DNA of 35,618 bases, taken from contig SIRU01000047.1 in the NCBI GenBank assembly GCA_004366385.1, positions 1 through 35,618 of the forward strand, given 5' to 3'. The notes under the pieces were generated by a model that was not told the DNA's origin, made no database searches, and worked only from the letters and a program-made list of their open reading frames with translations. Shown in pieces: positions 21,355-35,548 of the stretch; the first letter of the stretch is position 1; each line of letters starts with the position of its first letter. Source of the stretch: Actinomycetota bacterium (GTDB lineage Bacteria > Actinomycetota > Thermoleophilia > Gaiellales > Gaiellaceae). The position numbers were made by a program, and so were the translations under genes.

Positions 21355-21537
21355 CGCACACGGAGCACGGTGAGGGAACCCGGTGCGAATCCGGGACGGT
21401 CCCGCCGCTGTGAGGGGAGATGCTCCCCCGCCACGAAGCCACTGGCGAAAGCCGGGAAGGCGGCGAGGGAGGGAGCCCCGAGTCAGAAGACCTGTCGCGC
21501 TCCTCCATAACCGGACCCCTCGTGGAAGGAGGACCCA
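21355..21537 (+). ncRNA. Cobalamin (B12) riboswitch, translational-off type
   Basis: A textbook AdoCbl riboswitch. P1 is GGAGC (21362-21366) with GCTCC (21499-21503). The core has GAGGGAACCCGGTGCGAATC, the CCCGCCGCTGTGA segment, GAAGCCACTG, CCGGGAAGGC and the closing GAGTCAGAAGACCTG. The L5 loop GGTCC (21398-21402) is complementary to GGACC (21513-21517) in the downstream hairpin loop, the expected kissing-loop pair. That hairpin's stem pairs TCCTCC (21501-21506) with GGAGGA (21528-21533), which is the btuF ribosome binding site. Ligand binding should therefore hide the site and stop B12 import. Confidence 0.95.
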
Positions 21538-33062: not shown

Positions 33063-33092
33063 TTGACAGTACATATGGCTACGCCGTACGAT
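33063..33092 (+). promoter_or_regulatory. vapBC promoter with -35 TTGACA and -10 TACGAT
   Basis: TTGACA (33063-33068) and TACGAT (33087-33092) are 18 bases apart, the clearest two-part promoter in the core. The -10 ends six bases before GTG 33099, so the mRNA is predicted to be leaderless. This argues against starting vapB at TTG 33063 or ATG 33075, which would overlap the promoter. Confidence 0.65.
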
Positions 33093-33098
33093 GAGCTC

Positions 33099-33350
33099 GT
33101 GCCGAAGACCACCATCGACATCCCGGACAGCCTGCTGGCGGAGGCCAAGGAGGTTGCCGCCCGCGAGGGAACCACGCTCCGCGCGCTCGTCGAGTCCGGT
33201 CTGAGGGCCGCCATCGACCGACGCACGCGGCGCGGACGATTCCGTCTTCGAGACGCGAGCGTCGACGGACACGGGCTTCAGCCCGAGTTCCGGGACGCCG
33301 GCTGGGATCGGGTCCGCGACGCGGCCTACGAGGGTCGTGGCGGCGCGTGA
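33099..33350 (+). CDS. vapB: VapB-type antitoxin
   Basis: An 83-residue antitoxin starting at GTG 33099: MPKTTIDIPDSLLAEAKEVA then TTLRALVESGLRAAIDRR, the ribbon-helix-helix pattern of VapB proteins (PF09957-like). The C-terminal part (FRDAGWDRVRDAAYEGRGGA) is the flexible segment that normally plugs the toxin active site. Its stop overlaps the toxin start (GTGA), so the pair is coupled. Such complexes usually repress their own promoter, here TTGACA/TACGAT just upstream. Confidence 0.88.
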   Translation: MPKTTIDIPDSLLAEAKEVAAREGTTLRALVESGLRAAIDRRTRRGRFRLRDASVDGHGLQPEFRDAGWDRVRDAAYEGRGGA

Positions 33351-33781
33351 TTGCGCTCGATACGAACCTTCTCGTCTACGCACACCGACGCGACCACGGG
33401 CAACACGCAGCCGCCACGGCGGTCGTTCGCTCGCTGGCCGAGGGCGTCGTGCCCTGGGCGATCCCCTGGCCATGCCTGCACGAGTTCCTCGCGATCACGA
33501 CGCACCCACGGATCTTCGACCCGCCGACGACGATCGCCGCGGCGCTCGGCCAGGTCGACGCGTGGCTCGAGAGCCCGACGATCGTGCTTCTCGCCGAGCG
33601 AAGTGAGCACTGGCCGCACCTTCGCGCGCTCGTCGACGCGGGCGACGTGCGCGGCCCCCGCATTCACGACGCGCGCGTCGCCGCGATCTGTCTCGCCCAC
33701 GGCGTCACCGAGCTGTGGACCGCCGACCGAGACTTCGGCCGCTTCCCGCGGCTGCGGACGAAGAACCCGCTCGTCGCCTGA
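33347..33781 (+). CDS. vapC: VapC-type PIN-domain ribonuclease toxin
   Basis: A 144-residue PIN nuclease starting at GTG 33347 within the vapB stop. The four acidic metal-binding positions are visible: D5 (ALDTNLLVYA), E46 (PCLHEFLAI), D109 (RIHDARVAAI) and D127/D129 (WTADRDFGRF). VapC toxins cleave tRNA or rRNA at specific sites; the target is unknown. It is full length with all active-site residues, so the module looks functional. It ends 38 bases before tRNA-Val, close to a genomic island boundary, a common place for such modules. Confidence 0.9.
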   Translation: MIALDTNLLVYAHRRDHGQHAAATAVVRSLAEGVVPWAIPWPCLHEFLAITTHPRIFDPPTTIAAALGQVDAWLESPTIVLLAERSEHWPHLRALVDAGDVRGPRIHDARVAAICLAHGVTELWTADRDFGRFPRLRTKNPLVA

Positions 33782-33818: not shown

Positions 33819-33891
33819 GGGCGGTTAGCTCAGTTGGGAGAGCACCAGCTCGACAAGCTGGGGGTCACTGGTTCGAGCCCAGTACCGCCCA
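33819..33891 (+). tRNA. tRNA-Val (GAC anticodon), with C at position 33
   Basis: A complete cloverleaf of 73 bases. Acceptor GGGCGGT/ACCGCCC, D stem GCTC/GAGC, anticodon stem CCAGC/GCTGG, T stem ACTGG/CCAGT and loop TTCGAGC all pair perfectly. The anticodon GAC is at 33852-33854. CCA is not encoded. The anticodon loop reads TCGACAA, so position 33 (33851) is C where U is nearly universal. Position 32 T could pair with 38 A, extending the stem and shrinking the loop to CGACA. Everything else looks functional. Its 3' end abuts an integrase remnant, as expected for an attachment site. Confidence 0.93.
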
Positions 33892-33934: not shown

Positions 33935-34390
33935 TCAACGTACCGGCCCTCCGTCCCACACCGTCCCCATAGCAGGATCTCGCGAGGAGCGGAATACGTG
34001 CGATTCGAGCGCGATTGCGGCCTCTCGATGAGCGCCTTTGTACAGGTGCCCGTACCGGCGCAGGACGAGCGCGCCGCCGTCGGAGTGGCCCATCCGCTCC
34101 GCGATCACTTTGACGTTGCAACCGGCGGCGATCATCAGGGACGCGCCGGTGTGCCGCAGGTCGTGAAAGGTGAGCTCGGGAATGTCGGCGGCGCGGGCGG
34201 CAGGCTTAGCATCTCCATCGAGCACTGAGATCTTGGAAGGGAGCCTCGGTGTCGCCCCTTTGCGTTTGACCGGGTTCTCGAGGGTATGCTCGTAGCCAGT
34301 GCGACCGACCGCACGGGCCTCACCGACTCGGTGGGGGCCACGCGATCTGTGTCCGTCGCCGAAGCTCGAGCCTTCGATCGGCCTTGACAC
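33935..34390 (-). pseudogene. Tyrosine recombinase/integrase C-terminal fragment
   Basis: The minus-strand frame contains a recognisable integrase catalytic C-terminus: ELTFHDLRHTGASLMIAAG (His and the second catalytic Arg), VIAERMGHSD (His), and ALVLRRYGHLY with the nucleophile tyrosine in RYGHL. About 75 residues match the family. The preceding part (NPVKRKGATPRL, then SVLDGDAKPAARAADIP) does not show the N-terminal core-binding domain or the first catalytic arginine; a whole integrase would need roughly 250 more residues. It reads toward tRNA-Val. I take it as the decayed integrase of an island inserted there. Confidence 0.75.
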
Positions 34391-34413
34391 CTGTAAGGAC
34401 CGGCGCGCACAAT
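34384..34413 (+). promoter_or_regulatory. Promoter of the mauE-like operon
   Basis: TTGACA (34384-34389) and CACAAT (34408-34413) are 18 bases apart. The predicted start is near 34420, giving a leader of about 23 bases before ATG 34443. The -35 is a perfect consensus, unlike most core promoters in this window. Confidence 0.5.
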
Positions 34414-34442
34414 TGCGCTACTTCCAGTCTGCGGCGGAAGGG

Positions 34443-34985
34443 ATGTCCGTGGAACTCGCCGCCGCAGCGCGAATCGTTATCTTCGCCACTTTCGCGGTTT
34501 CGGCTTCCCAGAAGGCGACTGCAGTTTCACGATTTGCGGAGCAGGTTGCGGACTACGGTCTGTTCCCGTACCGCGCGACGAAGGCCGCCGCGGCCTGCGT
34601 CATCGTGATCGAGGTCGTAATGGCGGTGGCCATCCTCGTACCCAGCACCGCGGTCACTGCGTCGATGGCGGCCGCTGCCTTGCTTGCCGCCTTCGCCGCA
34701 GTGCAGATCCGTGTCCTCCATGCAGGCAGTCAGATCTCCTGCGGATGTTTCGGCGGCCAAGGTGATCTCGATCGAGTCGACAAGCACAGCATCGTCCGGA
34801 CGCTCTTGCTTGCGTCGGTCGCTTTACTCGGGGTTTTTGCTGGCGGCGGTGCCATGACGCCCGCGGTGGTGCCGATCGTGATCGCACTTGTCTGCGTTGT
34901 CTTCGTCGGCAGTGAACTCACCCGTCTCCTCACTGATGTAGCGGAAGCCGAACGCGATCTGGCTGCGCAGGGGCAGGTTGACTGA
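34443..34985 (+). CDS. MauE/DoxX-like redox-associated membrane protein
   Basis: A 180-residue protein with four to five membrane helices (about 7-23, 47-67, 70-90, 118-135 and 140-158). IRVLHAGSQISCGCFGG carries the C-x-C-F-G motif (cysteines 100 and 102) typical of MauE, which helps form disulfides in methylamine dehydrogenase maturation. The next gene is a thioredoxin-like protein, the usual MauE-MauD order. The segment is lower in GC than the core (a line I counted nearby was 60%) and uses a TTA leucine codon (34824-34826), pointing to acquisition by transfer. Involvement in methylamine use is not shown; similar pairs occur in unrelated clusters. Confidence 0.78.
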   Translation: MSVELAAAARIVIFATFAVSASQKATAVSRFAEQVADYGLFPYRATKAAAACVIVIEVVMAVAILVPSTAVTASMAAAALLAAFAAVQIRVLHAGSQISCGCFGGQGDLDRVDKHSIVRTLLLASVALLGVFAGGGAMTPAVVPIVIALVCVVFVGSELTRLLTDVAEAERDLAAQGQVD

Positions 34986-35548
34986 TGCCGGCGTACTGGG
35001 TCGTTGCGGTATTGCTGCTGATCATCACGGCGCTGAACTCGCTGGCTGTCGTAGCGCTGATACGCCAGGTCGGTCTACTCCACATACGGATTCGCCCAGT
35101 ACCTGCGCTGCTCGACGCCGAAGGGCCGCAGCCCGGCGCGGAAATCAGCTTCGAGGCTTCGCATTGGACCACCGTCGTGGGAAATGGGCATGATCGGTTG
35201 GCATTCGTGTTCTTCTCGCCGACGTGCAATCTCTGCGGGCCGCTACTCCCAGGAATCCAGCAGCTCGCGCACGAGCGGCCGGAGCAGTTCGTACTCGTCA
35301 CGGATACCGCTCTTGATCGTGCTGGCGAATACCTGAAAGCCAAGAAGATCCGCCTTCCCGTAATTGCGGAGCCGCGCTCCCTGACGCGGAATGCCGTTCC
35401 AGGTGCACCGTTCATAGTCGTCACCGACCGTCAGGGACGCGTCCACCTTGGTGGCGGTGTCAACAGTCTCGAGCAAGTCGAGTGGCTCCTTGATCGCGCG
35501 TCCGTAGAACCCGACGACGCAGTCACGCCAGAGACGACTTGGAATTGA
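34985..35548 (+). CDS. MauD/TlpA-like membrane-anchored thioredoxin-fold protein
   Basis: A 187-residue protein with an N-terminal membrane anchor (about 5-26, VVAVLLLIITALNSLAVVAL) and an extracytoplasmic thioredoxin-like domain. The active site is FFSPTCNLCGPLLP (cysteines 81 and 84), and the cis-proline lies in VPGAPFIVVTD (P142). ATG 34985 shares a base with the stop of the MauE-like gene (TGATG). The likely job is to exchange disulfides with a secreted cysteine-rich partner, receiving electrons or oxidant through the MauE-like protein. Codon use is less GC-biased than the core, as for its neighbour. Confidence 0.82.
   Translation: MPAYWVVAVLLLIITALNSLAVVALIRQVGLLHIRIRPVPALLDAEGPQPGAEISFEASHWTTVVGNGHDRLAFVFFSPTCNLCGPLLPGIQQLAHERPEQFVLVTDTALDRAGEYLKAKKIRLPVIAEPRSLTRNAVPGAPFIVVTDRQGRVHLGGGVNSLEQVEWLLDRASVEPDDAVTPETTWN

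Follow-up and report, generated by a model that had tools for sequence, protein, structure and literature searches.

Textbooks treat uridine at position 33 as invariant in elongator tRNAs, where it forms the U-turn by which the anticodon is presented. The turn rests on a contact of the U33 N3-H with a phosphate, a contact of its 2'-OH with N7 of a purine at position 35, and stacking. Candida tRNA-Ser(CAG) carries G33, and this non-U33 elongator has been kept in its lineage and is linked to codon reassignment. Mutations of U33 are said to lower translation efficiency, and in a yeast tRNA-Gln the U33C change gives a phenotype that was put down to slow decoding (PMC3664417). In vivo, GAU is read efficiently by a Streptomyces tRNA-Asp(AUC) that has C33, and no modification of it was reported from small-RNA sequencing (PMC9262613). 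C33 has also been remarked on as unusual in the tRNA-Cys(GCA) of Sulfolobales and was not isolated in that study (PMC7668247). Both of these published C33 tRNAs have a pyrimidine at position 35, contrary to the purine-35 contact. No earlier description of the C33 pattern in bacterial tRNA-Val(GAC) was found in the open-access literature, and tRNA databases may show such genes unremarked.

The stretch of DNA analysed here (the window) is 35,618 nucleotides long and belongs to a member of the Gaiellaceae, Actinomycetota (assembly GCA_004366385.1, contig SIRU01000047.1). It contains a tRNA-Val(GAC) gene with C33. Judged from its sequence, this is probably a functional elongator tRNA, with the near-invariant U33 replaced by C, and no other tRNA of the genome is dedicated to GUC.

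The tRNA-Val(GAC) gene and its surroundings

ARAGORN identified the window's one tRNA gene as a tRNA-Val with anticodon gac at 33819-33891 of the forward strand, with CCA not encoded. Rfam model RF00005 matched the same 73 bases over its full length (model 1-71 of 71) with 64.9 bits, the cut-off being 29. All pairs are intact in the stems 1-7/66-72, 10-13/22-25, 27-31/39-43, and 49-53/61-65. The anticodon arm, CCAGC-TCGACAA-GCTGG (33845-33861, forward strand), encloses a loop of T32, C33, G34, A35, C36, A37, and A38. The anticodon GAC (33852-33854, forward strand) is for GUC and, via wobble, GUU. The canonical U-turn loop has U33, and this tRNA has C in its place (33851, forward strand). An earlier note had described C33 in a tRNA with perfect stems and a clear anticodon, and this is borne out. 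Minimum-free-energy folding without tertiary contacts did not recover the cloverleaf.

The valine identity elements A35, C36, A73, and G3-C70 are present (set from PMC9976931). U4-A69, which the same source tabulates for bacteria and which may not apply beyond model bacteria, is absent; C4-G69 is found instead. U4-A69 is likewise missing in T33 relatives of family f7. The gene does not have the features of a bacterial initiator. Its anticodon is GAC and not CAU, G1-C72 is paired, and the stem CCAGC/GCTGG is without three G-C pairs at 29-31/39-41. Nor does it have those of a pseudogene, as the stems are unbroken, the score is good, the copy is not redundant, and the gene is conserved.

The genome is 2.73 Mb in size and 97% complete, and the window is its contig C40. 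RF00005 identified 47 tRNA loci with 34 to 75 bits, a range that includes the window tRNA. The loci were extracted and their loops read with ARAGORN; owing to overlaps between neighbouring loci, this reading counts some genes twice. T33 is found in the other 46 matches, that of the initiator-like tRNA included, and the window tRNA is the sole exception. The valine tRNAs are one Val(GAC) with C33, and Val(TAC) and Val(CAC), both with T33. The earlier note had suggested looking for a canonical second tRNA-Val(GAC), and neither the Rfam matches nor ARAGORN gave one in this genome. In 17 window ORFs picked as likely genes, GTC is the fourth commonest codon and accounts for 61% of the valine codons (399 of 657). 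The tRNA-Val(GAC) must therefore see heavy use. Most valine decoding has to fall to the C33 tRNA, unless U34 of tRNA-Val(UAC) is modified for C-ending codons.

The gene had also been placed next to an island, and signs of one are indeed present. An integration core covers tRNA positions 29-73, with C33 inside (33847-33891, forward strand). A second copy, identical at 45 of 45 positions, lies elsewhere in the same genome (G000:C44:138181-138225; L077 2182-2226), and core-like copies of 42-45 nt occur in several relatives. The copy on contig C44 has a TrwC/MobF relaxase gene on one side and chromosome-like sequence with a terminator on the other. Just downstream of the tRNA is the C-terminal part of a tyrosine integrase (33935-34390, reverse strand; PF00589, E 3e-9, profile 110-169 of 172). 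A single integrated mobilizable element probably has one end on each of these contigs. The core and the integrase fragment therefore explain the impression of an island without the tRNA being a pseudogene.

Upstream, a VapB-like antitoxin (33063-33350, forward strand; PF09957, E 1.8e-5) is followed by a PIN-domain VapC-like toxin (33347-33781, forward strand; PF01850, E 6e-10) that ends 37 bases before the tRNA. Within the presumed element, a MauE-family membrane protein and then an ORF without a Pfam match are encoded at 34299-35548. Elsewhere in the window, a Cobalamin riboswitch (21373-21493; RF00174, 89.8 bits) stands directly ahead of genes for a substrate-binding protein, a permease, and an ATPase. 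From the ORF translations, these genes resemble a B12-type ABC importer.

Distribution of C33

The identical 73-mer was found in 28 of 61 related genomes, own genome counted, and these represent many genera. When position 33 was left open, the pattern matched 287 of the 399 class genomes searched, with C33 in most of the matches listed. A T33-only and slightly looser pattern matched 26 of 189 class genomes. The T33 matches were all of those in f7, part of those in f10, G160 of f5, and an unusual extra copy in G168. Families f1, f2, and f3 possess C33 and gave no T33 match, and f4 has one of each. The class is thus predominantly, not wholly, C33.

In a sample of 396 Actinomycetota genomes, a strict pattern found C33 in 84, T33 in 120, and both in none; in the rest the tRNA lies outside the pattern or the assembly is incomplete. 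The own-class members of this sample gave 32 C33 and 0 T33. Eight families (f4, f5, f10, f16, f18, f33, f35, and f50) hold both forms, and base 33 has therefore switched repeatedly. A C33 and a T33 form of f16 differ at position 33 alone over the 37 bases matched. The sole C33 tRNA-Val among the 79 matching genomes of f35 is that of Corynebacterium wankanglinii, whose two Val(GAC) copies both have C33; an extra C33 match in G782 of this family is not tRNA-like. An extra T33 Val(GAC) at G339:C113:2509-2545, which we take to resemble the E. coli gene, is possibly contamination of that assembly.

Cellular genomes outside Actinomycetota were scanned in two phyla, Bacteroidota and Chloroflexota. 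The C33-G34 pattern was present in 4 of 148 Bacteroidota genomes, always in Val(GAC), and in 0 of 151 Chloroflexota genomes. One of the four is Salinimicrobium xinjiangense, in which both Val(GAC) copies have C33. In IMG/VR, 72 virus contigs carry the C33 Val(GAC) pattern and ARAGORN confirms 66, of which 50 have at least five tRNA genes in the fetched stretch. T33 Val(GAC) matches in viruses number at least 120. Among the loci L232-L303 are large phage contigs whose fetched stretch encodes 5-36 tRNAs, the C33 tRNA-Val(GAC) among them. In L244 and L262, a C33 copy of Val(GAC) is accompanied by a T33 copy. A Halomonas plasmid match of 91.8% proved to be a tRNA-Val(TAC) with T33. The earlier suggestion of a lineage-specific variant is correct in that the variant is real. 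It is too narrow in its scope, as C33 turns up repeatedly within Actinomycetota and is also present in Bacteroidota and phages.

C33 was also sought with any anticodon in 149 phylum genomes, by a pattern that covers isotypes with a D-stem GAGC and a variable-region GTC. Val(GAC) gave most of the matches, followed by six Thr(GGU) and three Ala(GGC). There were single C33 genes for Val(TAC), Met(CAT), and Thr(TGT), and a few chance matches that were not tRNA-like. The C33 tRNA-Thr(GGT) genes are in G416, G442, G474, G484, and G513 of f16 and in G430 of f34 (L155-L160); in G513 the tRNA-Val(GAC) has T33. The C33 tRNA-Ala(GGC) genes (L143, L214, and L215) are in f22 genomes that also have C33 in tRNA-Val(GAC).

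Among virus tRNAs except Val(GAC), 30 of 1285 distinct genes (2.3%) have C33. A purine is present at position 35 in 20 of these 30 (p = 0.04, uncorrected, one of several tests), and a need of C33 for R35 is weakly supported. A rule that C33 goes with G34 fails in the virus tRNAs (odds ratio 0.96). The distinct Val(GAC) genes collected number 65, of which 49 have C33; the set was selected, and its counts are descriptions and not frequencies. Of the 49, 47 have T at position 32, whereas position 38 varies, with A in 23 genes, C in 21, and T in 5. A T32-A38 pair, which had been proposed to tighten the loop, is thus not general, and U32-A38 pairing is not required as a compensation for C33.

Possible roles of C33

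It can be proposed how such a tRNA would work. C33 would remain C in the mature RNA. A U-turn-like fold would be kept, and only the contact of N3-H with the phosphate would be lost. The contact of the 2'-OH at position 33 with N7 of purine 35 might be retained. The ribosome would then take the C33 tRNA with normal or slightly lower affinity, and C33 would be either tolerated or tuning the decoding strength of tRNA-Val(GAC).

The possibility of simple tolerance has to be taken seriously, even if we would not bet on it. By drift, C33 would be nearly neutral and have no role of its own, in a tRNA that is itself functional. The repeated switches between C33 and T33 inside families fit this, and so do reports that C33 costs some tRNAs little. 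However, a neutral change should spread over isotypes, and C33 is concentrated in Val(GAC) in the 149 phylum genomes. The lack of any T33 match in f1, f2, and f3 also stands against drift. The preference for one anticodon and the persistence of C33 throughout families suggest that it has a role and did not merely drift. Drift is compatible with our preferred reading of a functional tRNA-Val(GAC); what separates the two is solely whether C33 itself has an effect. A stronger version would make C33 in tRNA-Val(GAC) a selected and repeatedly evolved decoding device, or the target of an unknown C33-to-U33 deaminase, and thus a systematic, anticodon-specific exception to U33 in bacteria and phages. 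This is put forward tentatively, as a possible but somewhat doubtful extension.

It is unlikely that C33 is borne by integrative elements. The integration core spans tRNA positions 29-73, and an element with C33 in its core could convert the host tRNA. The perfect core copy by the TrwC relaxase gene, the integrase fragment by the tRNA, and the core copies in relatives are consistent with such a process. Virus contigs L274 and L298 also have a C33 tRNA-Val 3' half joined to a 5' half that is unlike tRNA-Val. However, the 5' halves of the 28 genomes are identical too, and C33 is also found in lineages with other tRNA bodies. Conversion is at most a candidate process.

Editing appears very improbable. 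The gene would have C33, a cytidine deaminase would turn it to U33 in the RNA, and the mature tRNA would be canonical. C-to-U editing of tRNA is known in Methanopyrus, at position 8, and a site-specific enzyme would be in line with C33 being almost missing from most other tRNAs in these genomes. However, C33 is sporadic in lineages far from each other and in phages that have one or a few C33 genes, and every one of these would need the enzyme. RNA sequencing of the one published actinobacterial C33 tRNA detected no modification (PMC9262613).

A sequencing or assembly error or a decaying pseudogene, both raised in the earlier note, can be dismissed with near certainty because the same 73-mer with C33 recurs in 28 independently assembled genomes, and here it is the sole tRNA-Val(GAC), with an Rfam score in the range of its peers and nothing found in favour of either.

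Comparison with known tRNAs

If tRNA-Val(GAC) with C33 is functional, whole bacterial families decode their apparent main valine codon by a C33 tRNA, without a U33 alternative. Close relatives that differ at base 33 offer natural pairs for the part of U33 in speed, accuracy, and wobble. It will be interesting to use these pairs also to determine if tolerance of C33, or a preference for it, is particular to the anticodon GAC. C33 tRNAs should not be dropped as pseudogenes by annotation pipelines.

The window tRNA shares with the canonical bacterial tRNA-Val(GAC) the anticodon, the seven-base loop, A35, C36, A73, G3-C70, A37, and the overall body. It differs in having C33 and not U33, and C4-G69 and not U4-A69. 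C33 is common to it and the eukaryotic initiator tRNA-Met (PMC9023262). The latter has an A54-A58 pair, whereas the initiator features tested are all absent from the window tRNA. In comparison with Candida tRNA-Ser(CAG), nothing points to codon reassignment. The tRNA-Cys(GCA) of Sulfolobales (PMC7668247) is likewise an elongator with lineage-wide C33. It differs in being archaeal and limited to one clade, and in having Y35 and G27-U43. The Streptomyces tRNA-Asp(AUC) (PMC9262613) and the window tRNA are both actinobacterial elongators with C33, and the Streptomyces gene also sits in a probable integrative region. That tRNA is expressed and decodes its codon. However, it is a rare accessory tRNA with a purine at position 32, a low score, and Y35, whereas the window tRNA is part of the core set, is encoded by one gene copy, and reads a major codon.
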